Program-made: the position numbers and the translations under genes
NCBI GenBank assembly: GCA_947462335.1
Contig: OX381708.1
Location: 2,046,001-2,110,000, forward strand
Reading direction: 5' to 3'
Origin: Harmothoe impar
Lineage: Eukaryota; Annelida; Polychaeta; Phyllodocida; Polynoidae
DNA: 64,000 bases
Notes under the pieces: model-generated
Told to the model about the DNA's origin: nothing
The model's database searches: none
Seen by the model: the letters and a program-made list of their open reading frames with translations, nothing else
Shown here: positions 6,531-45,365 of the stretch, piece by piece
Position numbering within the stretch: the first letter of the stretch is position 1
Layout of the letters: the number at the start of each line of letters is the position of its first letter

Positions 6531-6542
6531 TATTGGCCGGGA

Positions 6543-17805: not shown

Positions 17806-17807
17806 GC

Positions 17808-26424: not shown

Positions 26425-26430
26425 ACTGTA

Positions 26431-26843
26431 AGTAGTATAGTATGTATCGGAACGGGACTATGCTTAAGTACTGTTTATTACTCACTCGATATGCAGCCAA
26501 TCAGAGGCCTCCATTTGGTCATGTGACCCGTTTAGGACTCTCAGCCAATCAGAAGCCAGCATTCTGGGTGACCTACTGACCTACTTAGAAGCTCTCAGCC
26601 AATCAGAGGCCGGCATTCTGGTAACCATGGTAACGTGACCTACTTACGTCACGTGACCTACTTAGGCTCAGCCAATCAGAAGCCAGCATTCTGGTAACTA
26701 GGGTAACGTGACCTACTTAGGGTTTGTTTGTAAACAACACCACGTGGCTTGTTTGTAAACAACACCACGTGACACGTGACTGTTTGTAAACAAACAAACA
26801 AAAAAGTTATGTAACTTATATATAGAAATAAAAACACAACAAG
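26431..26843 (+). repeat. Polinton-1 left terminal inverted repeat with promoter-like motif array
   Basis: Matches the right TIR over about 410 bp with small indels. It contains four CCAAT modules (AGCCAATCAGA(G/A)GCC), each followed by GCATTCTGG or a similar word and GTGACCTACTTA. Then come CACGTG and TTACGTCACGTGACC, and GTTTGTAAACAA forkhead-type sites near 26,723-26,800, and a TATATATA near 26,817. Such an array in a TIR suggests an inward promoter or enhancer, or a binding platform for replication or integration proteins. Confidence 0.9.
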
Positions 26844-26852
26844 ATAATTTCT

Positions 26853-26895
26853 TTTTTTTATTTTATTCTTTATTTTCATTTCAATCAAAAAAAAC
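26853..26895 (-). terminator. Polyadenylation signals for leftward Polinton-1 genes
   Basis: On the - strand, AATAAA occurs at least twice within AAAATAAAGAATAAAATAAA just after the last leftward gene and inside the TIR boundary. This is a natural 3' end for the capsid-protease transcripts. Confidence 0.6.
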
Positions 26896-26901
26896 ACAAG
26901 T

Positions 26902-27204
26902 TTATGCTTTTTTAGCTTGCTTCTTCGATTTGCAACCCAACAGGCCGCAAAGTCTCACGCCGCCGTCACTCGCACCACACCCCTGACGTCCTCTCTCCAA
27001 CAGACATTGCACGACTTTGGATAAATCCAACACCATTTCGGCAAGGCAGAGAATCTTTGCCTCCATGAAACGTCCGCCATCGCAACAACCCGCTATTTCT
27101 GTCACAACAGCATCATCGATAGCTTCTGACTCACTGTCCGGTCGCTCAGCTTTGGGATTTTGCTCATGCGCATGACGCACTTCTTGGGGTTTCTTGTTCG
27201 ACAT
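26902..27204 (-). CDS. Small terminal gene, function unknown
   Basis: 100 codons starting MSNKKPQEVRHAHEQ, overlapping the end of the protease gene. The middle is acidic, followed by a helix with ILCLAEMVLDLSKVVQ and a Cys/Lys-rich end. Diverged versions occur in both Polinton-2 pieces (38,241-38,452 and 44,778-44,948), each next to the protease gene, so it is a real conserved gene. I recognise no family. The position at the end of the late module hints at a virion or host-interaction accessory. Confidence 0.6.
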   Translation of the reverse strand: MSNKKPQEVRHAHEQNPKAERPDSESEAIDDAVVTEIAGCCDGGRFMEAKILCLAEMVLDLSKVVQCLLERGRQGCGASDGGVRLCGLLGCKSKKQAKKA

Positions 27205-27554
27205 GCTTCAATTAGGAAATGAACGCAATGAGGTCCACAGGTGTCAGCAGAAGTGTCTTGTAGTTGAATGCGGTTTCTTTGCCACTTGAACGGAGCAGAG
27301 CGTTCCACGAAAGACAAGAACTCCGCACTCAGCGGCGGTAAGCCGAAGGAATCAAAGTAGTACACTTCACCCGTGCTCGACACGTAAAACGCTACCCAAT
27401 GCTGACCTGGTAAATGTTGCGGATCTGTGTTGCTCACGAAACAAGTGTCTTTGATAGGGTGCTTCGGAATAGTGTCACAAGCGAAAACACCTAGGAAACG
27501 ATGTTTTGTGTGAACGTTTTCCTTCAACACTCTACTTATTTCAAGCGTATTCAT
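27102..27554 (-). CDS. Adenain-like (Ulp1-fold) cysteine protease
   Basis: 150 residues from MNTLEISRVL. The start is chosen because it follows the capsid stop by 29 nt and is matched in Polinton-2; the upstream frame overlaps the capsid gene. The catalytic set is visible: His in QHWVAFYV, Asp in YYFDSFG, Gln in QLQDTSADTC and Cys in CGPHCVHFL. This order (H, D/E, Q, C) is that of the adenovirus maturation protease family. In Polintons it is expected to process virion proteins during particle maturation. Not visibly damaged. Confidence 0.9.
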   Translation of the reverse strand: MNTLEISRVLKENVHTKHRFLGVFACDTIPKHPIKDTCFVSNTDPQHLPGQHWVAFYVSSTGEVYYFDSFGLPPLSAEFLSFVERSAPFKWQRNRIQLQDTSADTCGPHCVHFLIEACRTRNPKKCVMRMSKIPKLSDRTVSQKLSMMLL

Positions 27555-27583
27555 ACGATACGCTAAGTACCGCTGTCTTGTCT

Positions 27584-28891
27584 TCAGTTCATGTGGTAGT
27601 CGGTGATGGGATGTCGATCTCTGGTCAGCTCGACGACGTTGTCGTACACCAAGTAGAGTAGCACCGTTGTTGTCGCTTGTAGCGCCGAGCGGAAACTGAC
27701 TTCCACCCTCAGCTGACCCGCTCTTATAAGGTTCACGCGACATCCGTCGTGCGATCTGTCTGGGGTTAAATCGAGGGGGAACACTGTGTAACCGTTCAGG
27801 AATTGCTCATATGAAATACCACAGGAGCGCGCGCCCTCGTACATCCCCGTTTCCGTGTGTAGCGCCAAGTACTCTCTCACGGCCGCTTTGGTGTTAAAGT
27901 CGGGCACGTAAGCGTCGTTCGGCACTTTCTGATCGTTCACTATCACTTGAAGCGAGCTGATGTCGTAATGCTTCATCTCGAACAGGTTCTTGGTGTAGCT
28001 ACCATTGAAGGCGTCGTGGTCCAGGAAGCAAATCATCATCGACTTGGGAAGCTGGCCTGTGTTGGAGTGCGTGTAGCTGTGATCTCTGTTACCTTGAGGG
28101 ATGGCGTACGTCGTCACCTCCACTCTGTTCACCGGGTAGTCCAAGGGGCCGTGTTCTATCACCGCTCTCTCGTGCGTTTCCACTACAGCGTCCGCCACCA
28201 ACACACGTCGCACGTAGAGCTTTGCTTTGTAGATCTTCAAGCTGAAGCCCACGTCAGCGGCGCACATCAGATAGAAAGAGGGCGCTGCCTGTTTCAGAGT
28301 GAGATTGATTTCTGTCTCTCCAACGATGAGCTTTGGTTGATGAGCCAGGTCAAAGTGCAGTCGCGCCATCAGCGAAAAGCGCTTGTTGGAGATTAGCTTC
28401 CTGCGCCCTTTGTACCCAGCATTCGCGTTAGTCAACGCGTCAAACTGACCAGGCGTATCTTCATGCCACCCCTGGGCGCTCATGACGCCGCCCTTCACGT
28501 CATTGTTGTAGTTGAGTAACCCTTCCAAGTAAGCTCGGTAAGGGTAGGTCTCGGTGTTGCCAGACACTTCGAAACCGCCGATGGAGACTTGGACGTCTTT
28601 GAAGAGCAAGTGAGCCAAGTTGTTCACCGGAGCTACCGCGTCGGTGTCCTCTAGCGCCGCTCCGTTCGCTTTCAGCACTTGACATTCCAGATGAAGGTAA
28701 TTCTCGTCTAGGTCTGTGTACTCTTGCGACTTGTTGATGGTGAAATTTATGTTACCTCCATCCTCTAAAGAGTTTTTTGTTTCTATCCCGAGGAAAGACG
28801 GCTTTAAGATAGTAGTCTGAGTCGGCGCTACGGTGTGCAGGTCGAGCTCAGAGAGCGCGCACTCGTTACTGCTCTCGTGTACGTAAGCCAT
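27584..28891 (-). CDS. Major capsid protein, double jelly-roll (hexon-like)
   Basis: 435 codons with no breaks. Blocks typical of Polinton hexon proteins are present: an N-terminal SELDLHTVAPTQT, then KDVQVSIGGFEVSG, TYPYRAYLEGLLNY, INLTLKQAAPSFYL, and the C-terminal half with IEHGPLDYPVNRVEV, CFLDHDAFNG, FPLDLTPDRS and VYDNVVELTRD. The protein would form trimeric capsomers of an icosahedral shell. It has its own TATA box 55 nt upstream. Polinton-2 carries a closely similar but frameshifted copy. Confidence 0.95.
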   Translation of the reverse strand: MAYVHESSNECALSELDLHTVAPTQTTILKPSFLGIETKNSLEDGGNINFTINKSQEYTDLDENYLHLECQVLKANGAALEDTDAVAPVNNLAHLLFKDVQVSIGGFEVSGNTETYPYRAYLEGLLNYNNDVKGGVMSAQGWHEDTPGQFDALTNANAGYKGRRKLISNKRFSLMARLHFDLAHQPKLIVGETEINLTLKQAAPSFYLMCAADVGFSLKIYKAKLYVRRVLVADAVVETHERAVIEHGPLDYPVNRVEVTTYAIPQGNRDHSYTHSNTGQLPKSMMICFLDHDAFNGSYTKNLFEMKHYDISSLQVIVNDQKVPNDAYVPDFNTKAAVREYLALHTETGMYEGARSCGISYEQFLNGYTVFPLDLTPDRSHDGCRVNLIRAGQLRVEVSFRSALQATTTVLLYLVYDNVVELTRDRHPITDYHMN

Positions 28892-28945
28892 TGTGTTCTC
28901 TCTTCACGCGGACGACAGACTGACGCCGGCCGCCTCCAGTCTTTT

Positions 28946-28953
28946 TATTTATA
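28946..28953 (-). promoter_or_regulatory. TATA box of the capsid gene
   Basis: On the - strand the sequence is GGTATAAATAAAAAG, with TATAAATA 55 nt before the ATG, leaving room for a leader of about 25-30 nt. A near-identical word, GGTATCAATAAAAAG, precedes the ATPase gene. Confidence 0.65.
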
Positions 28954-28970
28954 CCTGAGCGCCTAGGCGC

Positions 28971-29393
28971 TTACCGGTCGAATACATCCCCTCTACGTCT
29001 CTTGCAAGAGCCACCGCCCGTCTGAGGAGAATGCCGGCGACGTTTCGACCCTTTCTTAGACGCGACAGTTGTCTTTCCTCCTGAGAACGCCGTACTCGCC
29101 AGTCTCTTCAGAGCGCCTGCGCCTTGGTCTTTCACGCTGCTCTTTAAAGTCCGACCCGCCAGCACATCTTTAGCTACGCCCACACCGGCGCGGAGCAGCG
29201 ATTTTCCCACTGACTTCAATAGCGGGGTAGCCGAGACCATCAGACCTAACAGAGCGCCGCCCAAACCGTGCCCGCTCTGGAAAGAGCGCCCGCTGTACAC
29301 GTTGACGCCGTTGCCCAGCTGCGCGTTGTAGTAATCGCTGTACCCTCTGCCGATGGTGCGCCTGGGTGGAAAGTACGGAACGCGTTGACGCAT
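28971..29393 (-). CDS. Minor virion protein, pVI/pX-like
   Basis: 140 residues starting MRQRVPYFPPRR; the ATG directly follows an A-rich leader. A short Gly/Tyr/Asn N-terminus (GRGYSDYYNAQLGNG) is followed by a Gly-rich amphipathic or hydrophobic stretch (HGLGGALLGLMVSATPLLKS) and a basic C-terminus with KRRRH and CKRRRGD. Polintons and adintoviruses carry a protein of this make-up next to the capsid genes, compared in the literature with adenovirus membrane-active or core proteins. A role in particle assembly or entry is inferred from family and position. No copy is left in Polinton-2. Confidence 0.65.
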   Translation of the reverse strand: MRQRVPYFPPRRTIGRGYSDYYNAQLGNGVNVYSGRSFQSGHGLGGALLGLMVSATPLLKSVGKSLLRAGVGVAKDVLAGRTLKSSVKDQGAGALKRLASTAFSGGKTTVASKKGSKRRRHSPQTGGGSCKRRRGDVFDR

Positions 29394-29406
29394 CTTTTTT
29401 TTTCTT

Positions 29407-30525
29407 TCAGCGCTCAATAGGTCTCAGATGAAGTGTCACGGTCACCTCGCCTCTACCGAATGGGATGGAATGGCCGGATCGGTCTCTTAAATAGATGCCG
29501 ACCTCGGTAAACCTCTTGGATTTCAAGGGGAAATAATCCAAATGGGGAAAACTGATAGCTTGCACGCCACCTCGAAGCCTTCCGCCTCTGTCCACCGCGA
29601 CGCAGCGTAACAGCGGCACTTGCATGTCGCCCACACGTCTCTCCTGGATCATGTCGGTGTATATGTACACAGAGTGCACGTCCCCGAAAACATCCATCGA
29701 GTAGGCGCCGGTAGTCGGTGACGCGAATCACGTCTTCTCTCCGAAGCCTAGAACACATGCGAGATGCTGAGTCAGCAGGACAGCGCAGTGTCTCGGCGGT
29801 TTGATGGTGACGCGTTTCGTCTTGGAGTCGTACGACAAGATCCCCATCGGTTTGAGCAGGAAGCTGGTGCCCTCTAGTCTGTCATCTTGCAACGTCTCAC
29901 TCAAGCGCTCGACTAGGGTGTGGTTGGTTCCGGTGAAAATAGGAGGTATCTCGAATATGTTTGGCACAAAACTGCGCACTCCCAGTTCTTTCTCCATCTT
30001 TTCGATCATCTGTCTTGCTTGATCGCTGATCGCCTTCTTCTTCACGGCCGGGGACAAGAACTGCTTGTATACGGCATTCGTCTGTCTCAAGTCCACCTCT
30101 CTCTTGAACCTTTTTGTTTCCGGCTTCAATCGCTGCTCTTGCGACGTGTCTGACATCTCTTCCACCGTTACATAGCTCGCTTCCTTCCTGCTCAGCGGGT
30201 ATTTTGAGCTGAACGTTAGCTTGGTCAGACCGTTCGCGTTTTTCATTCCCCTCCAGTTTACCTGCGTTTTTTTTCTTTCGGCGAATTTAGTGTCTTTTAA
30301 AACGTTGATCGCCTCCTCTAGCGAACCCTTGGTGCGCAGAGGAACAACGATGATCAAGTCGTCGTCGTGCACGTTAGTCCATTCTGTAGGGAGGATGATC
30401 TCAGTCAGAGCCGCTTCGTACGCTTCGGGCAGAAGGAGCGGCGAGTCGAAGTGAGTTCGGAAAGACGTCAAGCTGTTGTCAGGATAATACTCCATAGAGC
30501 TGTTGCTAGGTAGGGTGATGTTCAT
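29407..30525 (-). pseudogene. Penton-type minor capsid protein with one in-frame TGA
   Basis: The start MNITLPSNSSMEYYPDNSL and a conserved FDSPLLLPEAYEAALTEI form the N-terminal part, followed by a Lys-rich linker and VTIKPPRHCAVLLTQ, CVLGFG. A TGA at 29,728-29,730 stops it. The same frame then continues with VHSVYIYTDMI, VGDMQVPLLRCV and GEVTVTLHLR, the C-terminal half of Polinton penton proteins. The single jelly-roll penton fills the five-fold vertices. Exactly 9 nt, all A, separate the integrase stop from this ATG. The TGA is either a disabling mutation or, less likely, a readthrough point. Confidence 0.85.
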
Positions 30526-30534
30526 TTTTTTTTT

Positions 30535-31671
30535 CTACGTTATTTTTTTGACGGGGATCCACTCGTTGAACTTGTCGTCGTAACCTAACCAACGTACGAA
30601 AGCTAGCTCTTTACCGTCGACGGTCTTGCGGCGCAACACCTCGTCTATCAGGTAGTTGTTGTCGTAACGACTCTTGTACACCTTCTGAACCTCTTCCGGG
30701 TAGAAGACGCCTTTTATCTCCTCGCCCTTGTCGTCTTTCAGCTCGAACCCTCTGCTTCCCAACGTTTTAGCAACGTCGACCACTTCCTCGCGCCAGTTTC
30801 CCTCGTACCCTTTGTCAAAGGCGCCTTTAGTTCTCAACATCCTCACTCTGTCACCCGGAGCGATGACGTCGACGGCAGACGTCTTTGTTTTTTTCTTCTT
30901 TTTCCATATTTCGTCGATTTGTTTGTTAGTTGGGAGATCTTGTCAGTAGAAAACTGTTTCGCTGTTTTCCGAGCTGACTTGAGCCGGCGCCATTTTCAAC
31001 GTCTTGTGGTGAGTGCGATTGTAAGAAGACACTATATGGTGCAGTACGTCTACGTAGCGATACGTGCGCTTGTGTGTGAAATAACGCCACAGCTTCTCCT
31101 TCAGACTGCGGTTCAAGCGCTCCACTAGACTAGCTTTGATGTCGTCGTTCTCGCCAGTGAAAAACTCTATGCCCTCGCTCTTCAAGGGATCTTGAAAGAT
31201 CTTGTTCAAAAACTCTTTCCCCTTGTCTGTCTGAACAGTGCGCGGTTGTCTCTCGCCAGTGTCTGTCATCTTTTGGAAGGCCTCGGTAACATCAGCACCA
31301 CTCTTGGATTTAATGGGAACGGCCCACGCGTACCTAGAGAAAACGTCGATCGCCGTCACCACGTACCGGAAGCGGTCGTTGTGAGACGCCAAAGCCTGCA
31401 TGTCCATCAGATATATCTGCCACTGCTGATCGATTGCACCGGTTATAGTCTTGTTCCTTGCGAATTTTCTCCGAATGGGTTTATGTTTAGTGTAGGCGTC
31501 CAGCGACACTAAAGCATCTCGGATGACGGCCGGGTTTAGGTGGCGAAAATGATGTTTCTGGAGTTTAGTCACGCTAGTGAAACTGGAGGGTGCTTTGAAG
31601 TTGGTATATCTAGCTACTACGCGCTTCTTTTCTTTTTCCTTCTTGGTCAGTCTCTTCACCGGTTTTCCCAT
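30535..31671 (-). pseudogene. Integrase (rve) with chromodomain-like tail, one in-frame TGA
   Basis: A retroviral-type integrase that would join the linear element to host DNA. The core begins near IDQQWQIYLMDMQAL (first Asp), has IDVFSRYAWA, QTDKGKEFLN (second Asp), and LVERLNRSLKEKLWR (Glu). A TGA at 30,943-30,945 follows ETVFY. The same frame resumes and encodes an SH3/chromodomain-like tail with GDRVRM, GFELKDDKGE and FVRWLGYDDKFNEWIP, which is normal for Polinton integrases. Polinton-2 has CAA in place of the stop at the same junction, so one protein was intended. Its ATG overlaps the preceding gene by 16 nt. Confidence 0.9.
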
Positions 31672-32868
31672 TGTCGGCCTGATGGAGGAGTAGCACCAGG
31701 AGCGGGAGTGAACGACGCCGCCTCCGCTAGGCGGTTGCGCCTTTTCCTTTTCTTACTCGCCGCGCTCCTATAGGCCGACGGGGGTTTCAGTGTAGTCGGA
31801 GTTTGGAAAAGTTCACTGCCCTCGTCGTCGTCAGAGGATTGATCGTCCACCTGGAGAGAAGAGTCTGCTGCTGCTACTGCTGCTGCTGCTGCTGCTGCTG
31901 CTTCTCCTTCTTCCGAGTCGAAGCTCGGTCGTTTCCGACCTCTGTCAGCAAGCCGTGTGTCCAAACTTCGGCCAAGTCCGCTCGCTTTATACAGATGGTT
32001 TCCGATCAAGGAGTCTGTGGGAACTGCTTCGCGCAGCGCTTTTGTGAACGGAGAGTAGCCCGCCGGTCTGGGCGCCGTCTTCCTGAACCTGGCGGCGTCG
32101 TTCAGTAAGTCCACTATGTTGATGCGATGCTCAGGTGGTATTCTCCGACCCGACATCTCGCGTACCGCACCGTCCTCATTCCACTTGACCACACCAGATT
32201 TCTCCAATTGTTTGTACAGCGCCACGGTCCGGATGCGATTCCTCTTGGGAACTTGGTTCACCAACCGCTCAAGTAGGGACGCGCTGGCTTCTTCAGCAGA
32301 CTGACGGAGGTGAGCCGGGGGCGAAGAAGTGTAGGACGAAGAGATGTTGCTGTTGTTGGGATTCGCGAGAAAAAAATTGCAATCTATTCAACAGCCTTCG
32401 GTATTTCAAAATTTTCTCGCCCGATTCCAAAGTAGGATCGTTCAACACTAAGTCCAAGTCCCTGTAGATAAACTGTAGCACCTGGTGCAAGGCCACGTCG
32501 GGATGAAGGGACTGTTCTGCCTGCTTGTGGTAATAGGCCATATCGGCAGGTAGGCGGGCGGTGGTGGCAGGGGCGGAACTCTCGTTCTTTTCAGTACGCT
32601 CATCAGGAAGAGGAGGAAGGTTTGGAGCAGTAGAAGTACTAGCAGCAGCGACTGCAGTAGTAGCAGCGCTAGTAGTAGCAGCAGCGGGCACATGATGAAG
32701 TAGACCTGCTCGTGATGATTTGTAGAGCGTCTGAGGATCCACGAGCGCTAAGCGTTTGTAGTGTTGTTGCTGCTCTGAGTCCGTCATGGGGACGACGGTG
32801 GCGATGACGCTGGCGGTGGCGGTAGTGGTGGTACTGTCGGCGAGTAGGTGTCGAATGAGGTGTCTCAT
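31656..32868 (-). pseudogene. Conserved Polinton protein with INIVDLL motif, one frameshift
   Basis: The N-terminal part is Ala/Thr/Ser-rich, then shows QVLQFIYRDLDLVLNDPTLE and KYRRLLNRLQF. A run of seven T at about 32,370-32,376 shifts the frame. The other frame is open across this point and carries VALYKQLEKSGVVKWNEDG, RINIVDLLNDAARF and a C-terminal acidic and KKRKRR-rich region. Polinton-2 shows the two halves joined at a shorter T run, so a one-base insertion is likely. A protein with this helix-plus-IVDL pattern is common next to the ATPase in Polintons, and its function is not known to me. The ATG overlaps the ATPase stop as ATGA. Confidence 0.8.
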
Positions 32869-33923
32869 ATACGGAGAATGCTCTTTATAAGCGGTAAGGC
32901 CATCCCTATGAGAGCCGGAATGAGGAAACCTCCCTCTTGTACCAAGACGCGTCTCTTTTTTTTGATGGGCGTAGATTTTTTGCCGACCTCCCTCAACACG
33001 TCAGCCGATTCTCGAAGCTTGTCCAGTTGTTTGTCGCTGAGCGGGATGTTCCCTACGAGTAAATTGTGACAGATCTCACTCAACGCTGCGATCAGATCGT
33101 CGCTTCCAGAGTCTATTAGATGCGAGCAGTCCTTTGGCGAGCACTTAGCTAAGTGCTTGAGAGTACCAAAGTGTCTTTCAAGTAGATGAGAAGACTTTTT
33201 TGCTACTACTTTCTCTTGTTCTTTTTTTTTGTCTAGCGGTACGAATACTAGCTGAGAGTGTATGGACGTCAAAGAGGAGCGTATTCTCAGATCGTCAGGT
33301 GTTGACTGCTTGAAGTCCAGAAGGAGGTATGAGTGAGGTCGCTTGAGTTCATGGGTAAATATACTAGAGAGGGCCGCCGCGTTGGAGGGAAACACCTGGC
33401 GAGACAGACTAGCTATTTGCCCCATGTCGCGCGGGTTCTTGAAAATGATCATGTAGTGAGCGTTCAGTCTCATAGTTCGAAAGTCGGGTGATTTCTGGAA
33501 TAGGTTCTGAGTGATATATATGAAGCTCACGTTACAGTGATGGGAGTATTTAGTAAAGATGTCGGCTACCACTTGCTGATTGTAACTGCTCATCAGATCG
33601 TCCAATATCAGTAGAGTGTGTGGTCGTAAAGCGTCTTCTGCTACTTCCATGTCTCCCGCTATAGACTCTTTGCTAGGAAGACCTTCTCTGAATTCCACAC
33701 CGTACTGATTTTGCATTTTTTCAAACAGAGGTTGCCACTCGCCATAATGGTAAAAAGTCTTTTCCACCGGCGGCGTGACCAAATTGTTCACGTCGCTCAG
33801 AAATTGATCCACCAAGCGCGATTTTCCACAACCCGACGGACCGCTAATGATACAACTAAAGGGTCCTTGTAGTCGAGCGTCGAAATAAATTTCTGTGAAG
33901 AGTTTGCTTTTACTACTCGACAT
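32865..33923 (-). CDS. FtsK-HerA type genome packaging ATPase
   Basis: 352 residues from MSSSKSKLF. An in-frame upstream ATG at 33,989 would add 22 residues; I prefer the inner start because an A-rich leader abuts it, as in two other genes of the element. Walker A is ISGPSGCGKSRL, Walker B HTLLILDDLMSS, followed by FIYITQNLF (sensor-like). The C-terminus ends in a hydrophobic PALIGMALPLIKSIL. This is the A32-like ATPase of Polintons and related viruses, which pumps DNA into the capsid. No breaks. Polinton-2 has lost the Walker A segment. Confidence 0.93.
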   Translation of the reverse strand: MSSSKSKLFTEIYFDARLQGPFSCIISGPSGCGKSRLVDQFLSDVNNLVTPPVEKTFYHYGEWQPLFEKMQNQYGVEFREGLPSKESIAGDMEVAEDALRPHTLLILDDLMSSYNQQVVADIFTKYSHHCNVSFIYITQNLFQKSPDFRTMRLNAHYMIIFKNPRDMGQIASLSRQVFPSNAAALSSIFTHELKRPHSYLLLDFKQSTPDDLRIRSSLTSIHSQLVFVPLDKKKEQEKVVAKKSSHLLERHFGTLKHLAKCSPKDCSHLIDSGSDDLIAALSEICHNLLVGNIPLSDKQLDKLRESADVLREVGKKSTPIKKKRRVLVQEGGFLIPALIGMALPLIKSILRI

Positions 33924-34033
33924 TTTTTGTTTTTTTTCAGCACGCCGCAGAGAGTAGTTGTGTGTCTGACTGTCTGCTGTGTTTCTCACTCGAACGGTCG
34001 GTAGTCAATGGTTGTGGAGAAAAGTCAGCCGAC

Positions 34034-34046
34034 CTTTTTATTGATA
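34034..34046 (-). promoter_or_regulatory. Putative promoter of the ATPase gene
   Basis: The - strand word GGTATCAATAAAAAG lies about 110 nt before the inner ATPase ATG and differs by one base from the capsid gene TATA region. It may be an element-specific late-type promoter. Confidence 0.4.
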
Positions 34047-34181
34047 CCGGCCGGTGTCACAGTAGCGGCGGCAGAAGTGACTTTTTTTTCTTTTTATTTT
34101 TGCGATAAAATTCTATTTTCACTCAATAGTCATAAATGTTTGCATCAGACTCCAGAGGAGTCTGATACAAATATTTATTTT

Positions 34182-34232
34182 AAAAAAAAAAGAAGAGGAG
34201 GAGGAGGAGGAGGAGGAGGAGGAGGGGAGGAG

Positions 34233-34263
<31 letters not shown>
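34182..34263. repeat. Low-complexity (GAG)n and poly(T) tract
   Basis: A-run, then about ten GAG units, then a run of about 24 T, between the ATPase promoter region and the next leftward frame. Confidence 0.9.
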
Positions 34264-34265
<2 letters not shown>

Positions 34266-34269
34266 TCAT

Positions 34270-34563
34270 TTAGGCAAAGCTCGTCGCTTTGCCGCTTTTT
34301 TTTCTTTTTCTGTGTTGTGAAACGATCGTCTCGAAAAAGCAATAAGGCGTGTGAGCGCGGCGGTGACAAATACATATTGGAGCGTATGGTTTAAAATAGT
34401 GTGTCCCTATCTTCTTCAATTTGGCTGCGTTGCAATATGCGGGATAACAAGTGACGACGTCGAAACGTTTAGAGACCGTGTTCACGTCGGCCACAACGCG
34501 CGTCCACCGAGTGGGAGCTGCAGTCACTCCCAAGAAACGGATCGGCTTGTCGAATCGTTTCAT
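34270..34563 (-). CDS. Small basic ORF, unknown
   Basis: 97 codons from MKRFDKPIRFLGV, rich in Arg, Lys, Tyr and Cys (CYPAYCNAAKLKKIG, PICICHRRAH). An in-frame ATG at 34,707 would extend it by 48 residues, so the start is uncertain. A TTATAAAG word lies 12 nt before the inner ATG. I see no counterpart in Polinton-2, and I recognise no family. It could be a chance frame. Confidence 0.35.
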   Translation of the reverse strand: MKRFDKPIRFLGVTAAPTRWTRVVADVNTVSKRFDVVTCYPAYCNAAKLKKIGTHYFKPYAPICICHRRAHTPYCFFETIVSQHRKRKKSGKATSFA

Positions 34564-34707
34564 AGCGCTTATTCTCACTTTATAAGAGGAGGCAGGGTGA
34601 GTTGAGTAGCAGCGCTCTTTCTTTTCATGAAACGAGTGGGGGCGCTGAGAGCGGCTGTTATGCAATGATAGAGTAAATACTGTTCTGAGAAGACGGCTCT
34701 CGGCCAT

Positions 34708-35670
34708 GTCGCTACGTTTTCCTTTTCCGCTCTTGTATAACGACGATTTCTTTGGCACACGGCTTTGCTTTTCTCGAGAATTCGGTACTCTTCAAGAGAA
34801 GCATGAACCTCAACTACGTGACGCTCTCTCCTTTGAGATAAAAAAATAGCCGGGCAGTTGAGGAGGGCACTTTGTTCGCGTGTCCGTCTTTAAGAAACTC
34901 GCGCCCTCTGCAGTGCCATATTTCTTTCCTCCGAAACAAAAAAGACTGAGTGAAAATAAAAATTTTAAAAACGAAAAGCTCAAAGAAAAAAAATAAGCAA
35001 TAAGCAGACTCAGCTCGAAATTCCCTGCTGGCGTGATGGCGGTGACGGTAGGGGCGGCCGGGTGACTGCAGGCGGTGGCGGCGGTCGGCTGGCCGGCGGT
35101 GGCGGTGTCGGCGGCGATGGTAGAAGGGGGTGTGGAAAGAGAGATGCATCTCAGTCTTTTATAGGAGCGGCGAGAGTTCGACTTAGTCTGACATTTTCAG
35201 CTGTCGCATGCTGACCTGCTGCTATCATAAGAGAAACAAAAGCCGCCCTAATCACGCTTTTCAGCTGGATCCTTCCACCCACCAGACATGGATCCAGATG
35301 GGAGGGTGGTTTAAAATTAATCCGTGTATCGACTGTCATACAATAGTGTAATTAGTTGAATGCGTGTTACCTGTATAAAGGATTAGCAGGTCATGGGCTT
35401 AGAGTGTGTATAGAAAAACAACTACAGGTAGCGTGAACAAAGCGACCCCCTCCCTTTCTGTCACTCTGTCTGTGACTAGAGGGCGCGCGTGTGGTAAGCG
35501 GCTTAAATCTAAAGGAAAAAAATCACCCTCTCCTGTCGTCAGCAGTCAGCTGGCCGGCGGCTGGAAAATGCGATTAGAGGGATGATTAGCGCGTAGTAAG
35601 CGACTTAAGGCTAATCTAAAGACCTGCCGTGAGTGGGCAGCTGGCCGGCGGCTTGAAAAAAGGGGGGAGT
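34708..35670. other. Non-coding right part of Polinton-1
   Basis: Where a full Polinton would keep PolB, this stretch has only short frames. A TATAAAAG on the - strand at 35,156-35,163 points to a leftward promoter. The GGCGGTGGCGG block at 35,040-35,120 is low complexity. CTGGCCGGCGG recurs at about 35,088, 35,551 and 35,641. No polymerase motif was seen on either strand. Confidence 0.6.
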
Positions 35671-35674
35671 AAGG

Positions 35675-35683
35675 GTATATAAG
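35675..35683 (+). promoter_or_regulatory. TATA box of the rightward Ala-rich gene
   Basis: GTATATAAG preceded and followed by G-runs, about 118 nt upstream of the ATG at 35,801. A (CTA)n tract at about 35,725-35,760 lies in the leader. Confidence 0.6.
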
Positions 35684-35725
35684 GGGGAGTGAAACCGTAT
35701 TCGTCATCGTCAATCATCATTCACT

Positions 35726-35771
<46 letters not shown>

Positions 35772-35800
35772 CAGCACCACGCCTCAATTTGCAGATCCCC

Positions 35801-36421
35801 ATGATGGAAAGTTGCGACCGTGACATGTAGCAGTATGACGAAGCGGCGCGCGAATGTGAAGCTGATGCTGTAGCCTCTGCTACTGCTGCTGCTAGTGCTG
35901 CTCATCGTGCTACTGCTGCATTTACTGCGGCTGTTAGTGACGCTGGTTGTGATGACGTTGTTGTTGTTGCCGCTGCGGCTTTGACTGCTGCTGTTGCTGC
36001 TGCCGATGCAGCTACTCATGCCGCCGATGCCGACGCTGCTGCTGCTGATGCTGTTGCGGCTGCCGATGTCGCCGCTGATGACGCTGCTAGTGTACGCTCT
36101 CCCGCTCTTGCTACTGTCGCTGCTGCTGTTGTTGCTAATGCTCACGCTACTGCTGCTGCCGCTGCTGCTGCAACCGCTGCTGCCGAGGCTGCTGCCGCTG
36201 CTGCTGATGCTGCTGCTGATGCTGCTGATGCTGCTGATGTTAGTAGTCGCGTCGACAAAGAATCGTCATTTGTCACTCATAAACCTCCAGTTGAACGCGC
36301 GACGGGTAGTAGGGCTACCAACGCGACGGCCGGATGGTGCAAATGGTGTCGTCGCTTCTGCTCGTGCTCTTGCTTTTCTTCCGGCCCTACCTGCTGCTGC
36401 TACAGTATAATAGTGTTATAG
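35801..36421 (+). pseudogene. Ala-rich repeat protein, rightward, one in-frame TAG
   Basis: 207 codons from ATGATGGAA, with a TAG at codon 10 (35,828-35,830) and no other stop. The main part is Ala with periodic Asp (AADAADAADV type), encoded by GCT/GCC and GAT repeats, then a short end with KWCRRFCSCSCFSSGPTCCC. If the TAG is real, a downstream start would give the Ala-rich part only. A separate Ala-rich gene occupies the matching place in Polinton-2 (38,709-39,248), so the gene is kept even though composition dominates. Function unknown; a fibre- or helix-like structural role is a guess. Confidence 0.5.
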
Positions 36422-36501
36422 TGTTTGAATGAGAACGTACGTACACATAGACACTGTAACAGATGTGCTTTTTGAAAATATAATTTTAGCATAACATGGC
36501 A

Positions 36502-36938
36502 CTTGTTGTGTTTATTTTCTATATATAAGTTACATAACTTTTTTGTTTGTTTGTTTACAAACAGTCATGTGTCACGTGGTGTTGTTTACAAACAAGAGAG
36601 CCACGTGGTGTTGTTTACAAACAAACCCTAAGTAGGTCACGTTACCCTAGTTACCAGAATGCAGGCTTCTGATTGGCTGAGCCTAAGTAGGTCACGTGAC
36701 GTAAGTAGGTCACGTTACCATGGTTACCAGAATGCCGGCCTCGGATTGGCTGAGAGCTTCTAAGTAGGTCAGTAGGTCACCCAGAATGCTGGCTTCTGAT
36801 TGGCTGAGAGTCCTAAGTAGGTCACGTTACCATGGCAACGGGTCACGTGACCAAATGGCGGCCTCTGATTGGCTGCGTATCGAGTGAGTAATAAACAGTA
36901 CTTAAGCATAGTCCCATTCCGATACATACTATACTACT
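36502..36938 (-). repeat. Polinton-1 right terminal inverted repeat
   Basis: Complement of the left TIR with minor indels and substitutions, carrying the same CCAAT, CACGTG and GTAAACA modules. Its inner end is CTTGTTGTG at 36,502. The outer end carries ACTACT then the ACTGTA duplication. Confidence 0.9.
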
Positions 36939-36944
36939 ACTGTA

Positions 36945-37819: not shown

Positions 37820-38190
37820 AGTAGTATAGTATGTATCGGGATGGGACTATAGCTCAGCTACTGAAATGGTCCAAACCACAAGAGACCAATCACAGGCCTC
37901 CATTTGGTCACGTGACTGGAAGTGCCCTACTTAATCGAGCTCTCAGCCAATCAGAGGCCAGCATTTGGTTGCCATGGTAACGTGACCTACTTAATCAACC
38001 AATCACAGGCCTCCCTTTTGGCGGGAAATTCAAAAAGGACTGGGAGTGACCTATTTAAGGTGACCTTGACTAGTTACATAACCGGAAGTGATGTCACATA
38101 ACCAGAAGTGACCTAGTTACATAACCGACGTGATTCAATTTTGTAAAGAATTATTTATAATATATAGATGTTATGAAAAAACATAACAAG
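37820..38190 (+). repeat. Polinton-2 left terminal inverted repeat
   Basis: Shares the end word, CCAATCA(C/G)AGGCC modules (at least three), CACGTGAC, CCATGGTAACGTGACC and the inner ACATAACAAG with Polinton-1, at lower identity. The 6 bases to the left are CAAGTT, and no matching copy is seen at the other end. Confidence 0.8.
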
Positions 38191-38240
38191 TGGAGATGTT
38201 TCACATGTTTATTATAAACTGTACACCTTTTTCAAAAATG

Positions 38241-38452
38241 TTAATCAAATTCATTTTCCAACAGACAATCATGTTCAGTGTCGCTGCTTTGAGAGACATT
38301 CATTTCACCCAGCATACGCTGTGTTAATTTTCCCAGTTTAACAGTTAACTCACCTAAACATATAAGATGTTTTTGCATGTGAGGTGAATGGCACAGACAT
38401 GCTACCTTTGTTTGAGGTGCTTGATCCATTTTTTGGATTTCTCGTCCGACAT
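38241..38452 (-). pseudogene. Relic of the small terminal gene
   Basis: Starts ATGTCGGACGAGAAATCC, like the Polinton-1 small gene, then shifts frame. The second frame gives HMQKHLICLGELTVKLGKL, matching the ILCLAEMVLDLSK helix. It lies next to the TIR as in Polinton-1. Confidence 0.5.
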
Positions 38453-38459
38453 ATTGCTA

Positions 38460-38640
38460 GATATTAGGAAATGGGTGTAATGAGCTCAACAGGTGTTAGT
38501 TTATTGGTCTTGTAGTTCAATATCTTTTCTTTTCACCAGAGACGTATAAACTGTATTCTCAGCGGTGGTATACCAGTAGAAGGAATCAAAAGTAGTACAC
38601 CGCGGCTACATCTGTATGTAATAGTGTCCTTGTTAGCCTG
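38460..38640 (-). pseudogene. Relic of the protease gene end
   Basis: Nucleotide similarity to 27,210-27,400 of Polinton-1 is clear: TTAGGAAATG, CAATGAG-type word, ACAGGTGT, GTCTTGTAGTT, CTCAGCGG(T/C)GGTA and GGAATCAAA(A)GTAGTACAC. The frame is lost. Confidence 0.6.
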
Positions 38641-38708
38641 TGGGAACGCTTTTTTTTCCTTTTACGTAATAATGTAATAATAATAACAATATTGATAGCT
38701 CACCGTTG

Positions 38709-39248
38709 CTAACATACATACAGGATAGTGTTTTCTCTAGTTAGACCGACATAAAGACCGAGGTCTAAGGGTACTAGCATGTAGAAGGCTCCCATGTTAT
38801 GAGATGGTAATTCCATACCCTCTACATGGACCATATTGTGTGTGAGGGTGTATACTCCGTTTTCTTGTACGACGGGTGGGGATGGTGTGACTTGGACAGC
38901 AGCAGCATCAGTAGCAGCAGCATCAGTATCCGTAGCAGCAGCAGCAGCAGCAGCTGTAGCAGCAGCTGTAGCAGCATCATCAGCAGCAGCAACAGCAGTA
39001 GCAGTAACAGCAGCAGCAGCAGCAGCAGCAGTAGCGACATCTCCAGCAAGATTAGCGGTAGTCAAAGCTTGTGAAGCAATAGCTGTGGCAGCAGCAGCGA
39101 CTTCAGGTCTATCTTCTATAGCAGCAGCTTCTACAGCAGCGATGTAAGCAGTAGACGCTATAGCAGCAGCAGCTGCGGCCCTAGTGGCAATAACAGAAGC
39201 AGTGTGAACAGTCTCAGATAAAGACATGTTAACTACAGACTGTCGCAT
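38709..39248 (-). CDS. Ala-rich protein with conserved-looking C-terminus
   Basis: 179 codons, unbroken. About 110 residues are mostly Ala with Thr, Val and Asp. A non-repetitive C-terminus includes NGVYTLTHNMVHVEGMELPS and FYMLVPLDLGLYVGLTREN. It is divergently placed to the ATPase, as in Polinton-1. The C-terminal part is not low complexity, so the frame is probably a real gene rather than a chance reading of GCA repeats. Function unknown. Confidence 0.5.
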   Translation of the reverse strand: MRQSVVNMSLSETVHTASVIATRAAAAAAIASTAYIAAVEAAAIEDRPEVAAAATAIASQALTTANLAGDVATAAAAAAAVTATAVAAADDAATAAATAAAAAAATDTDAAATDAAAVQVTPSPPVVQENGVYTLTHNMVHVEGMELPSHNMGAFYMLVPLDLGLYVGLTRENTILYVC

Positions 39249-39259
39249 GGACTGTGCTT

Positions 39260-39475
39260 TCAGTATGCTGCTGCTGCTGCTGCTTCTGCTTCTGCTGCTG
39301 CTGTGTCACCTGCTGCTGCTGCTCTGCTGCTACTCTACTACTACTGGTGATGCTGCTGCTGCTGCATATAGCTGCTGCTGCTGCCACTCTGCTACTGCTG
39401 CTACTCTGCTGCTACTCTACTACTGCTGCTGCTGCTGCTGCTGCTCCTGTTACTGTGGCTGTTACGTGGCGTGAA
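39260..39475. repeat. (CTG/GCT)n trinucleotide-rich tract
   Basis: Dense CTG/GCT repeats between the Ala-rich gene and the ATPase relic. They give long spurious Leu-, Cys- and Ala-rich frames. Confidence 0.85.
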
Positions 39476-39478
39476 AAA

Positions 39479-40396
39479 AACGAAACTTTTTACAGAAATA
39501 GATTTTGATCCTCGACTGCAAGGACCGTTCAGTTGTATCACCTGTGGAAAAAGTTTTTTACCATTACAGTGAGTGGCAAAAAGACTACGGAGTAGAATTC
39601 AGAGAAGGACTTCCCAGGAAAGAAGATATAGCGAGGGACGAAGAAGCAAAAGAATCTACCCCTCTCCCACCTCATACTCTTTTGATATTGGACAATCTAA
39701 TGAGTAGTTCGAATCAGCAAGTGGTAGCGGACATATTTACCAAGTATTCGCATCACCGGAACGTGAGTGTGATATACATCACTCAAAACCTCTTTCCAAA
39801 ATCATCTCAATTCCGGACTATGAGTTTGAACGCTCACTACATGGTCGTTTTCAAGAACCCTCGCGACATGGAACAGATAGCCGCTCTATCTCGTCAGGTG
39901 TTTCCATCCCACTCGACCGCCTTGTCTAGTATTTTTACCCATGAGCTCAAGCGACCTCACTCATACCTGCTGCTGGACTTCAAGCAGACAACACCGGATG
40001 ACCTGAGGATACACTCCTCTCTCACGTCCATATACGACCAGATCACCTTCGTTCCACTAAGCAAGAAGAAAAAGAGGAAGTGATGGCTACTCTTCAGCTG
40101 AGAAAACACTTAGGCACTCTGAAACACATGGCTAAGTGGACTGCAAACATATCGTGAACTCTGGAAGTGATGATTTGATCACGACACTGAGCGAAATCTG
40201 CCAGAATTTACTGGTGGGAAACATTCCACTCTCCAAGGCTCAACTGGAAAGTCTCCGAGAATCTGCTGACATGTTAAGGATGGTGGCCAAGAAAAGTTTT
40301 TCCATCAAAAAGAAGAGAACCGTGTTGGTTCAGGAGGGTAGTTTTATTCTTCCGGGTCTGGCTTTGCCTCTTATAAAAAGCATCCTCCGTGTCTAG
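39479..40396 (+). pseudogene. Packaging ATPase relic lacking Walker A
   Basis: The start (KLFTEI-like, LQGPF) is joined directly to VEKVFYHYSEW, removing the segment that holds the Walker A loop in Polinton-1. Walker B region HTLLILDNLMSSSNQQ and VIYITQNLF remain. A frame change follows at about 40,085, then the C-terminal part continues to LALPLIKSIL. The product cannot bind nucleotide normally. Confidence 0.85.
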
Positions 40397-40439
40397 AGCT
40401 CCTCATTCGTCGCGTCGCCACCACTGCACAGACCGGGAA

Positions 40440-41573
40440 GGAGAGCAACCCTATAAGCGTTTGGCTCTCGTCAACCCAAGACTTCTTTCTAAGTTTTGAG
40501 GACCTATGGATGTGGCACCGGCTTTGGTTGGTGGTCTTCTTCCTACAAGTAGCGCTCTTGCTTCTACTACTTATTCTCCTCATGTTCAACATGAACAGCG
40601 CTCCGCATTCTCCACCGACACTGACGCACCAGCTGCTACCATCACCAGTACTACCGGGAACCATCCTTCATTACGGACAGCACCACCACAACTACTACCA
40701 CCACCACCACCACCACCACCACCACGAACAAAACCCAACATGGCTTATTACCGCAAAAAAGCTGAACAAGGTTTACACTCTAACGCAGCATTACACAAAG
40801 TTACACAAAGTGCTACAGTTCGTCTACAGAGACTTGGACGTTGTGTTGAACGACCCTAATTTGGAATCGGGCGAGAAAATGATTAAATACAAGAAGTTGT
40901 TGAACAGGTTGCAATTTCTCCTCTCAAACCCAAACAACAGCAACATACCATCGTCAGTAGCTGGTGGTGCTACATTTCCCGTCGAGACTCCGGATGAGCG
41001 CATCCTCCGGATGAGCGCATCCTCCGGATGAGCGCATCCGGAGGAAAGTGCTCTACAGCGTTCCAATGAGAAAGCAATCTCAGAGCACTAAATTGTTTGA
41101 CACGCTGCAACGCTCTGACTTGGTGAAATGTGACGACCAAGGGATGGTGAGTAAGATGTTTGGTAAAAAACCTCCTCCTGAGAGTAGAATAAATATAGTA
41201 AAATTATTGGACGACGCCGCCAGATATAGGATGACGGTGAAAAAATGTATTGGCTCGGGAAGATCCCATCGGTGACATGTTCGGAAACCCTCTGTATAAA
41301 GAAGGGAATCAAAACATGGACCAGCGCACTTCACAGCAAGCCCTTACTGCAGACAGAGGTACGAAACGTCTAGCAGAGTCGGACGAAAAGAGCGAATTGT
41401 ACGACATACCCCTTGCTGTTATTTCAGACGTCACTCCTTGTCATTCTAAAGACTACTGCCGTCAACGCACTCATCCCACCCTTAGGAAAAGCAGCAAAGA
41501 AAATAAATCGCGTTCTCGCACGGTCCAACTCGATATCACTCCTTCTCGTTCGAAATGGGAAGGGCTAAAGTAA
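40440..41573 (+). pseudogene. INIVDLL-protein relic
   Basis: Pieces correspond to Polinton-1 31.7-32.9 kb: YKRLALV, a Pro-rich linker, NMAYYRKKAEQ, LQFVYRDLDVVLNDPNLE, RINIVKLLDDAARY. Breaks include a 10-bp duplication TTACACAAAG at about 40,790-40,810 and a 17-bp tandem triplication (CCGGATGAGCGCATCCT) at about 40,990-41,040. Confidence 0.75.
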
Positions 41574-42205
41574 CCAAAAAGGACAAAGAGAGAAGACAAG
41601 TGGTGTATGAGTACACCAATGTTAAAGCACCTGGTAGTATCACTAGTGTCACCAAATTGCAAAAACATCATTTCCCCGACAGAAACGCGGACACCATAAG
41701 AGATGCTTTAGTGTCACTGGACGCTTACACTAAACACAAAATTTGAAAATGGCACCTGCCGACGTTGACTCGGACAACAGGGAAGCTGTTTTTTATCAAC
41801 GCAATGTCCCTATGAAGAAACAGATGGACAAGAAGGTGGGGAAAAAAAGAACCTGGACGCTTGCATACGGATGTGATAGCTCCCAGGGACAGAGTGAGAA
41901 TGTTGAGAAGTAAAGGACCCTTCGACAAAGGTCACGAAGGAAACTGGATGAACGAAGTGGTCAACGTCGATAAAAAGTTGGGCAGGAGAGGTTTCAAACT
42001 GGAGGATGACAGCGCGGAGATGATAACGGGCGTGTTCTACCCCGAAGAGGTTCAGAAGGTCACCAAGAGTCGTTACGGTAACAGTTACCTGATAGACGAG
42101 GTTCTACGCTACAAGACCGTCAACGGTAGGCGTTTAGCTTTCGTACATTGGAAAGGTTACGTCGACAAGTTCAACGAGAGGATTCCTGTCAATAAAATTT
42201 CTTAA
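41555..42205 (+). pseudogene. Integrase relic without catalytic core
   Basis: The N-terminus (MGRAKVTKKDKERR, TKLQKHHFPDRNA, LVSLDAYTKHK) is fused almost directly to the end of the core (MAPADVDS, EAVFYQ). About 0.5 kb with all three catalytic residues is gone. The chromodomain-like tail (GFKLEDDSAE, FVHWKGYVDKFNERIP) survives after a frame change near 41,840. At the junction where Polinton-1 has TGA this copy has CAA. Confidence 0.85.
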
Positions 42206-42220
42206 GAAGAAAAGAAAAAG

Positions 42221-43057
42221 ATGAACATCACCTTACCTAGCAACAGCTCTATGGACTATTACCCTGACCAAACCCTGACTTCTTATAAGACACATTTCCG
42301 CTCGCCCTTACTTTTACCGGAGGCTTACGAAGCGGCTCTGAGCGAAATCATACTGCCGACAAAATGGAGTAATGTACTGAAGGAGGATTTCTTCGTTATC
42401 TCTCTTCTACGGGAAGACCTATCGTAGAAACAGTCGTCGCGACTGTTAAACAACCGACCTCTGTTAGAGGCACTACTAAAAAGTGGACTGGGAAAAGCTG
42501 GAGGAAGATTTGACTCAGGCAGAAACAGTAAGACGAAGTAGTCTAAGAGCGTTAGAGTCACTACGAAAAGTGGACTGGACCAAGTGGCACGCAGACATTG
42601 GTAGCGCAGAAAAAGAAGACAGAGAAGAAGACGGAAAAGAAGACGGAGAAGAAGACGGAAAAGAAAGAGGAGAAGGAGGAGGAGGAGGAGGAGGAGGAGG
42701 AGGAGGAGGAGGAGGAGGAGAAAGAGGGGGTAGTGTTAGAGTGGTTAGGCCTGTAAGTAGCAATGAGAAAAACGCAACGTCACGTTACACACTCAACTCG
42801 AAAGAGGAAGACCTAATTATAGAAAAAAGAGATCCTACCAAAGAGAAAAAAAGAAAAAACTCCACCTCTTAGCACCGCCGATAAAATAGACATGCAAATA
42901 AAAAAATTATCGAGAAAGATGGTTAAAGAACTGGAGAAGGACTACAAGATAGAAATGTTGCTGGAGAAAACTCCAAAGAGAGCACCTCGAAAAAAAGGAG
43001 CAAAACACATTAGTCGAGAACCTGTTCAAACAGGAAGCGGTTCGCAGTGTACGTAAG
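42221..43057 (+). pseudogene. Penton relic with (GGA)n expansion
   Basis: The start MNITLPSNSSMDYYPDQTL and LLLPEAYEAALSEIILP are clear; then the frame is lost. A GAA/GGA-rich stretch (42,600-42,725) and a Lys-rich segment follow. The C-terminal penton half and the neighbouring minor virion gene are absent. Confidence 0.75.
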
Positions 43058-43153
43058 GCTGACATCTTCGACGGCTAGACGGCATATATATATGAATGGG
43101 TTACAGGGTCCCTCTCTCAGTCCACCGTCAGTCGATGCAACGAGGGGTCGCAA

Positions 43154-44396
43154 TGGCTTACGTGCACGAAAACAGCAAGGAGTGCGCACTTAGCGAGCTC
43201 AATCTGCACAGAGTACGACCCACTCAAAAAGTTATCCTCAAGTCCACCTTCGTCGGCCTAGAAACCAAAAATTCTTTGAGCGACGGAAGTAACATCAACT
43301 TCACAATCGGCAAGACGCAAAAGTATACGGACCTGAACGAAAACTACCTACATCTCGAATGTAAGGTAGTGAAAGAAAACGGCGACGCTTTCGGAGTTGA
43401 CAACACATGGCTCCCGTGAACAACTTGGGTCAGGCTCTGTTCAAGGACGTTCAAGTTTCCATCGGAGGTTTCAAACTATCCGGTAACACGGAAACTTACC
43501 CCTACAGAGCTTACCTGGAAGGTTTGCTTAACTACGACAAGGGTGTGAAAGAGGGCATCATGACGGCGCAAGGTTGGTACAGAGACACGGCCGGTAAGTT
43601 CAACGACCTGACAGACGCAAATGAAGGCTTCGTGGCTCGCAACCTGGCTCATCAACCGAAGCTCATAGCTGGAGAAACAGAGATCAACCTCACTCTGAAA
43701 CAGGCTTCGCCTAGTTTCTATCTGATGGCCGCTATCGACAGCAAGTACAAACTAAGTATCAGTAAGGCTAAGCTTTACGTGCATCGTGTTGTGGTTGCTC
43801 CTTCGGTGTCGGAAACGCACGAGAAGGCCATCATCGAACACGGACCCTTCGACTACCCCATAAACCGGGTGGAAGTGACAACCTACGCCATACCCAAGGG
43901 CAACAGAGATCACGCCTACACGGGACAGCTCCCCAAGGCCGTGACCATTTGTTTCTTGGACCACGACGCCTTCAACGGAAATTACAAGAAGAACCTGTTC
44001 GAGCTGAAACATTTAAATATCAACTCACTGCAAGTGATCGTGAACGACCAAAATGTTCCCAACGACGCCAACGTCCCCAACTTTGCCGACAAGCAAGCGG
44101 TGAGGGAATATCTGGCACTACACACAGAAACAGGGATGTACAAAGGTTCGCGCTCTTGCGATATCAGCTACGAAGACTTCCTGGATGGTAACACGGTGTT
44201 CCCGCTAGATTTAACTCCCGACAGATCGCACGACGGTTGCTGGGTCAACCTTATAAAGGCAGGGCAGTTGAGAGTAGAGCGCAGTTTCTCCACCACGCTC
44301 ACAGCGACAACAACGGTGCTACTCGACTTGGTGTATGACAACATCGTCGAGTTGACCAGAGACCGTCATCCCATCACCGACTACCACATGAACTGA
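43154..44396 (+). pseudogene. Major capsid protein copy with one frameshift and one deletion
   Basis: Starts MAYVHENSKECALSEL and aligns along the whole Polinton-1 capsid protein. The frame changes near 43,405, and about 20 residues (the KLISNKRFSLM block of Polinton-1) are missing near 43,640. The rest (TYPYRAYLEGLLNYDKG, CFLDHDAFNGNYKKN, FPLDLTPDRS) is intact. A TATA-like CATATATATATG lies about 65 nt upstream. Confidence 0.9.
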
Positions 44397-44415
44397 GCTG
44401 GTCCACTCGAAGCGT

Positions 44416-44847
44416 ATGAACATGCTAGAAATTGAAAAAGTGTTGAAGGATAACATTCACACGAAAAAACCTGTTTCCTAGGAGTTTTCTCTTGTGACAC
44501 AATTCCCCATAAAGGACACTTGTTTCGTGAGCAACACAGACCCTCAACATTTACCAGGTCAACATTGGGTGGCGTTTTATGTGTCAAGAACAGGAGAAGT
44601 GTACAACTCGTTCGGTTTACCTCTGCCGAGCATAGAGTTTCTATCTTTCGTGAAATGCTCTCTTCCTTTCAAGTGGCAAAGCAACCGTTTTCAACTGCAA
44701 GACAACTCTGTGGACCCCTGTGGACCTCATTGCATACATTTCCTGATAGAAGCGTGTCGGACAAGGAATCCGAAAAGATGTGTCATGCAGATGAGCAGAA
44801 ACCAGAAGTTGAGCGATCGGAGCGCGAGTCAAAAACTCGCGATGTAG
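44416..44847 (+). pseudogene. Adenain-like protease relic
   Basis: MNMLEIEKVLKDNIHTK starts 17 nt after the capsid stop. A frame break follows, then NTDPQHLPGQHWVAFYV (His kept), a gap at the YYFDS position (catalytic Asp region shortened) and DPCGPHCIHFL (Cys kept). Confidence 0.85.
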
Positions 44848-45361: not shown

Positions 45362-45365
45362 CATG

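Follow-up and report, generated by a model that had tools for sequence, protein, structure and literature searches.

How does a capsid-building Polinton multiply when it has no polymerase of its own? The question is raised by an element of 10,508 bp at positions 26431-36938 of a 64,000-nucleotide stretch of the Harmothoe impar genome (assembly GCA_947462335.1, contig OX381708.1, positions 2,046,001 to 2,110,000; here called the window, with positions counted from its first letter). The element carries integrase and capsid-building genes between long terminal inverted repeats, while a degraded relative, Polinton-2 (37820-46500, plus strand), lies beside it in the opposite orientation and also has no DNA polymerase B (PolB) between its ATPase and left repeat. 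The present analysis shows that a PolB-less lineage exists and that it has expanded very recently. The reading that we favour is that its PolB may well be supplied in trans by other, PolB-carrying Polintons of the same genome. As the protein-primed PolB (pPolB) is absent, the element is classified here as Polinton-derived and not as a full Polinton.

Absence of PolB from the Element

The element is bounded by AGTAGTATAG...CTATACTACT and flanked on both sides by ACTGTA (26425-26430 and 36939-36944), an exact 6-bp target duplication. The left terminal inverted repeat (26431-26833, plus strand, beginning with AGTAGTATAG) and the right one (36511-36938, minus strand) are 403 and 428 bp long, respectively, and match at 92.3% over 428 columns, the differences being mostly gaps; the perfect duplications and matched repeats reported in a preliminary description of this DNA are thus borne out. 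With their (AGT)2 ends, these are long terminal inverted repeats of the Maverick type. Among the best 40 of 1,568 repeat candidates in the genome, the match starts at base 1 in 39 and at base 2 in one.

The preliminary description had also stated that the element contains neither a PolB motif nor space for one, and this holds. Between the ATPase and the right repeat (33990-36510) no stop-free stretch in any frame exceeds 196 amino acids (aa), and the gap between the protease and the left repeat is 268 bp; elsewhere in the genome, most PolB loci have open frames of about 1,130-1,570 aa. When six PolB queries (two group A and four group B parts, from the PolB loci described below) were run by tblastn against the window element, Polinton-2, and 17 family pieces, nothing came up at E<=0.01, and the positive controls, in which the queries find each other's loci, matched. 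A hidden polymerase was considered as well and rejected, since the Pfam hits of 10 open reading frames (ORFs) include no polymerase and the six queries came back empty.

The 17 right-end pieces were taken from 10 of 97 and 7 of 122 places in two genome-wide capsid lists. In eight of them (L025, L029-L032, L055, L057, and L058) the DNA runs from the ATPase into the right repeat, 91-96% colinear with the window element and with no large insert. L027 has entered the repeat by the end of its piece, and the right ends in L026 and L034 belong to elements that have been shortened. L033 stays colinear over 2.4 kb and diverges thereafter, the shifted piece L028 stops short of the repeat, and L060 is a Polinton-2 relative. 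In the remaining three (L056, L059, and L061) no useful match to the family was obtained and no family ATPase or repeat was seen, hence they carry little weight. The opposite pattern, in which most copies with the same ends and capsid would carry PolB, was looked for and not found: the ATPase-to-repeat region is without PolB in the eight colinear pieces, and none of the 17 matches PolB.

Both ends could be read in nine copies, each of which has an exact 6-bp duplication, identified by script in eight and, because of one variant base, by eye in L030. Seven are 10,459-10,537 bp long, and the other two 8,352 and 8,793 bp. Polintons/Mavericks are characterized by an rve integrase together with a 6-bp duplication; the window copy has both, and the exact 6-bp duplication is found in all nine other copies. 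From the exact duplications and the uniformity of the PolB-less copies it follows that the PolB-less unit itself moves.

Copy Number and State of the Family

The searched genome comprises 1.51 Gb, and the search lists hold the best candidates, so that the high identities are partly due to selection. With the window capsid as the query, the best 97 of 2,815 candidates consist of 96 places at 96-97% besides the window copy itself; all 97 are full length and 95 are stop-free. With the Polinton-2 capsid ORF, the best 122 of 2,709 candidates fall into six relatives at 85-90% and, in addition to the window copy, 115 places at 78-79%, most of which share one identical score. The two lists overlap at two places, so that together they contain at least 210 different copies that are of the window/burst type and at least 7 of the Polinton-2 type.

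A database integrase, P0037, is identical and stop-free in 109 of 109 places (best 109 of 7,852 candidates). It comes from two contigs, the longest of which has 10,510 bp, the length of the element; it could represent a free genome or else a repeat that has been collapsed. Its source tag presumably denotes read-archive assemblies. A 40-base stretch of the integrase of the burst copies, which are close relatives of the window element, has 1,061 exact matches in the genome and its reversed control none. The difference between two burst copies amounts to 3 mismatches and 26 gap positions over 3,354 columns. When the window copy is compared with a burst copy, the ratio of nonsynonymous to synonymous substitution rates (dN/dS) is 0.23 for the capsid and 0.24 for the integrase, which indicates that both genes are under constraint, as judged from the sequences.

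The next-nearest integrases (P0046, P0047, P0049, P0050, and P0065; 52-58%) sit on contigs of 12-18 kb, which have room for PolB. In IMG/VR, 14 and 9 pattern matches were obtained, none of which was confirmed as a relative.

Probable Ancestral Loss of PolB

In the capsid tree (56 rows, including 19 of 20 PolB-linked capsids, one match below 300 residues having been dropped), the window element, a burst copy, and Polinton-2 form one clade with six database proteins (support 100/100). The position formerly held by PolB is occupied in this clade by p97, a conserved small protein (34270-34563, minus strand), which is 93-95% identical in other copies, 51% over 63 residues in the Polinton-2 relative L060, and 67% and 59% in two database proteins. 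The single capsid clade and the common p97 argue for one ancestral loss. The earlier proposal that PolB was lost in an ancestor and that the lineage persisted is supported.

The ORF holding p97 has no Pfam family hit, and its structural model (predicted local distance difference test score, pLDDT, 44) is too poor for a fold search. A putative Ala-rich ORF directed at the right repeat (35981-36421, plus strand) has counterparts in Polinton-2 and in L060, which also has an ATPase. The Ala-rich ORFs of the window element and the Polinton-2 group are alike in position; they are candidate ORFs whose homology is uncertain.

PolB-Carrying Polintons in the Same Genome

A genome search with PF03175 gave at least 129 matches, which were collapsed by hand to at least 68 loci (best 83 of 695 candidates scored). 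Every one of these loci is more than 25 kb away from the listed family hits, a result that is supportive and non-exhaustive since the family lists are incomplete. Of 24 PolB loci inspected for an adjoining capsid, 20 have one, 22-26% identical to that of the window element, and four have none in the piece. In the capsid tree, 17 PolB-linked capsids form a separate clade (100/99). The two group A capsids come closest to the PolB-less clade (98/92), but their branch has a length of 2.19, so their placement is unsure.

These PolB Polintons include young copies. Six group A PolB loci are 98.9-99.7% identical to L002, whereas L001 fails to align, and two copies of B1 are 99.6% identical over 7.8 kb. 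One B1 copy with PolB is 19,776 bp long, has the duplication CATGTA, and shares its first eight terminal bases with the PolB-less family.

Within group A (L009-L012, L035-L038), two copies are 99.1-99.7% identical over more than 20 kb, with a tRNA-like stretch where the right-hand similarity stops; no tRNA gene was found at the group A end. The layout of group B (L013, L016, L018, L020, and L022) differs from that of group A, PolB being on the strand opposite to the capsid module and beside its capsid end. The sequence AGTAGTAT was tried as the end of the L017 PolB family and rejected, as the similarity continues through AGTAGTAT in four copies. For L022, no partner end was found.

How the Family May Replicate

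The preliminary description left two options, replication by the host polymerase or as a satellite that uses the PolB of another element, and we lean towards the latter. In the proposed mechanism, a borrowed terminal-protein polymerase would copy the linear DNA starting at its ends, the ATPase and capsid of the family would package it, and the family's own integrase would insert it. The element would then be no dead deletion product; it would be a satellite of other Polintons that bears a capsid. A fuller version of this proposal, which we regard as plausible if still tentative, is that the family is an intragenomic, virophage-like parasite of Polintons: having lost its polymerase and terminal protein, it would use the PolB of its sister Polintons, package and insert itself, and outrun its helpers to more than 1,000 near-identical copies.

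The terminal repeats bear on this mechanism. In an alignment of the twelve repeats of six copies, columns 34, 56, and 129 tell two subgroups apart in the same way in both repeats, and a change at column 39 is confined to one copy, where both repeats have it. Such parallel change is what one would expect if one end served as the template for the other, as in adenovirus panhandles. The preserved (AGT)2 ends and the partial homogenization of the repeats therefore favour PolB acting in trans, and, taken together, the coexistence of resident young PolB Polintons, the ends, the parallel repeat change, and the constraint favour a borrowed PolB.

Several observations weigh against this proposal. The homogenization is only partial, columns 22, 196, 277, 341-344, and 393 being side-specific, and the (AGT)2 ends could be kept for the integrase alone. 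According to PMC11071308, the terminal protein of Polintons is part of pPolB, so the family is without a primer of its own as well. The terminal match between B1 and the family extends over eight bases only, six of which are general to Mavericks, and the repeats of the sampled PolB elements have no blastn match to the family repeat; the search for PolB Polintons with related repeats, suggested in the preliminary description, was thus positive for the first eight bases of B1 and negative otherwise. The ends of group A were not found, the left end not being reached. Finally, dN/dS is near 1 on few changes for p97 (0.86-1.01) and for 114 ATPase residues (0.99), values that on sequence grounds neither support nor exclude constraint.

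The main rival to trans-supplied PolB, which we consider unlikely, is that the integrase works as a cut-and-paste transposase as in Ginger elements, with the copy number rising through host DNA replication and the capsid genes serving for occasional packaging or being passengers. This would need the integrase and the repeats only, and it is in line with the identical, stop-free integrase at all 109 scored places and with the tblastn result that no polymerase was found in the family. A capsid dN/dS of 0.23 and the 95 stop-free capsids among 97, however, suggest that the capsid functions; the parallel changes in both repeats would be unexpected, and the duplications of Ginger elements are 4-5 bp against 6 bp in Polintons.

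A helper virus that is not resident in the genome, PolB-bearing or other (for example, an exogenous adintovirus), might instead copy the family during infection. The nearest relatives of the capsid and integrase are on database contigs, and the 10,510-bp contig with the integrase could be a free genome or a collapsed repeat. The resident PolB Polintons are nevertheless young and would suffice, and no relative was found among the viral contigs of IMG/VR, which makes such a helper improbable. Less probable still is that the region between the ATPase and the right repeat encodes an unrecognized replication protein, p97 or the Ala-rich product, by which the host polymerase is recruited. In favour of this, p97 is conserved across the clade where PolB used to be; against it, p97 has about 100 aa, its ORF is without a family hit, its model is unusable, and its dN/dS between copies is near 1. 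That the copies without PolB each arose by a separate internal deletion from a family that has it, PolB being normal in Polintons, is very improbable and largely refuted by the uniform length of seven of nine copies, their perfect duplications, the single layout of three subgroups, and the finding of no PolB-bearing member among the copies examined.

Relation to Known Elements

According to PMC8097293, intact vertebrate Mavericks have one module of pPolB, ATPase, PM, and PZ and another of integrase, minor capsid, PW, capsid, and protease, and (AGT)2 is their commonest end motif. Compared with the Polintons/Mavericks described there, the window element is alike in gene order, rve integrase, 6-bp duplications, (AGT)2, capsid module, and repeat length, but it is without pPolB, it measures 10.5 kb, where intact vertebrate elements reach 12.7-24.6 kb, and its genes are on one strand. 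The double jelly-roll capsid, packaging ATPase, and adenain-like protease of Polintons/Mavericks are all found in it, the capsid by model and the protease precisely at the cut-off. With adintoviruses (PMC11071296) it has in common the adenovirus-like virion genes and an integrase with a C-terminal chromodomain, whereas their defining PolB with an N-terminal OTU-like domain is absent. The same paper mentions some animal contigs in which adenovirus-like virion genes are joined to genomes without recognizable PolB and integrase.

Many endogenous Polinton-like viruses (PLVs) of protists have no detectable polymerase, according to PMC10120064, which describes them in general terms only and allows for an unrecognized enzyme. 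They and the window family are both capsid-bearing, integrated, and present in high copy; the window family differs in its uniform 10.5-kb unit, its co-resident PolB families, and its very young burst. In comparison with the virophages and helper-dependent PLVs of the same source, it would likewise be a capsid-making parasite of a virus-like element, with the difference that the helper on which it putatively depends would be a sister Polinton and not a giant virus.

To our knowledge, Ginger elements have no polymerase and no capsid genes. A related integrase and terminal repeats are common to Ginger and the window element, but Ginger elements make duplications of 4-5 bp and Polintons of 6 bp (PMC10045372); the window element has 6 bp together with a capsid module, and 6 bp is found in all nine copies instead of the 4-5 bp of Ginger.

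A description of the window family was not found among open-licence PMC papers, which is no proof that none exists. The family is unusual in having kept its integrase, in the uniformity of its PolB-less unit, in how large and how recent its burst is, and in the PolB families that share its genome. PolB is treated as a hallmark of Polintons, yet it is the PolB-less form that has been successful here, with 1,061 exact integrase matches against at least 68 PolB loci. The recent burst separates integration and the capsid module from replication and offers a system for probing helper dependence. Surveys keyed on PolB miss such capsid-bearing lineages.

Gene Content of the Element

From the right repeat, the order on the minus strand is p97, the ATPase with a following ORF, two ORFs in the PM/PZ place, integrase-chromodomain, putative penton, small basic protein, capsid, and protease. 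The adenain-like cysteine protease (27102-27743) has H115, D131, Q162, and C169 and matches Peptidase_C5 with 21.3 bits, precisely the curated Pfam cut-off. It overlaps the capsid ORF (27584-28891) by 160 bases (27584-27743) in a different frame. The capsid ORF has no Pfam hit; its confident AlphaFold model (pLDDT 85.5), whose best structural matches are the capsids of PBCV-1, Sputnik, and mavirus, predicts a double jelly-roll major capsid protein. Named relatives of this capsid occur in a gastropod and a sea urchin.

The small basic protein (28971-29417), assigned to PW by position, has 33-34% matches at PolB loci L009, L011, and L023. The putative penton or minor capsid protein (29728-30525) has no Pfam hit and no credible match among solved structures and is named by gene order only. 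The morphogenesis set of the preliminary description therefore stands for ATPase, capsid, and protease, as does the integrase, while its "penton" and "minor protein" are assigned by gene order only.

The integrase (30538-31671) is recognized by rve (1.2e-12) and by Chromo (0.00014, under the Pfam cut-off), and integrase-chromodomain is one 378-aa protein in relatives. The window copy is interrupted by one in-frame stop after residue 242, and intact copies occur elsewhere in the genome. Next to it are an ORF in the PZ position (31656-32264) and an ORF in the PM/PZ region (32293-32868), both placed by position.

The packaging ATPase (32865-33926, Walker A GPSGCGKS) matches Adeno_IVa2 with 22 bits against a cut-off of 21. 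Its 374-aa ORF in the window consists of an ATPase of about 253 aa (about 231 residues from the ATG) and a second ORF of about 120 aa, the two being fused because of one extra A in an A-tract. The end of the ATPase ORF (33231 region; L027, L028, and L060) is A-rich and overlaps the second ORF in another frame; the tract is A8 in two copies and A9 in the window copy, and it is possibly a frameshift or reinitiation site. An in-frame TAG is present in 110 of 115 scored ATPase copies. A dead packaging ATPase was considered and rejected, as in the two readable copies (L027 and L028) the TAG is the gene's own stop before the overlapping ORF.

Polinton-2 and the Rest of the Window

Polinton-2 has the same gene order as the window element and about 60-75% protein identity to it in most pieces, with repeat-like pieces at 37820-38018. 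The shared order and the lack of PolB agree with the preliminary description, which is to be corrected in that Polinton-2 is degraded. An inverted, degraded protease-like end lies at 38431-38616 on its ATPase side, as if a repeat end had been copied across; a second protease gene was considered for Polinton-2 and rejected in favour of such a degraded inverted end. The capsid is partly duplicated (43727-44026 and 45691-45990), and near-identical 300-nt repeats (45381-46501 / 58137-58436) tie the end of Polinton-2 to the edge of a neighbouring Ty3-type retrotransposon.

Elsewhere in the window, non-LTR (long terminal repeat) and Ty3-type LTR retrotransposon coding with RVT_1, RNase H, rve, and aspartyl protease is found at 598-2698, 4194-7412, and 51924-57470, and dense tandem and direct repeats with long G tracts occupy 13500-18900.

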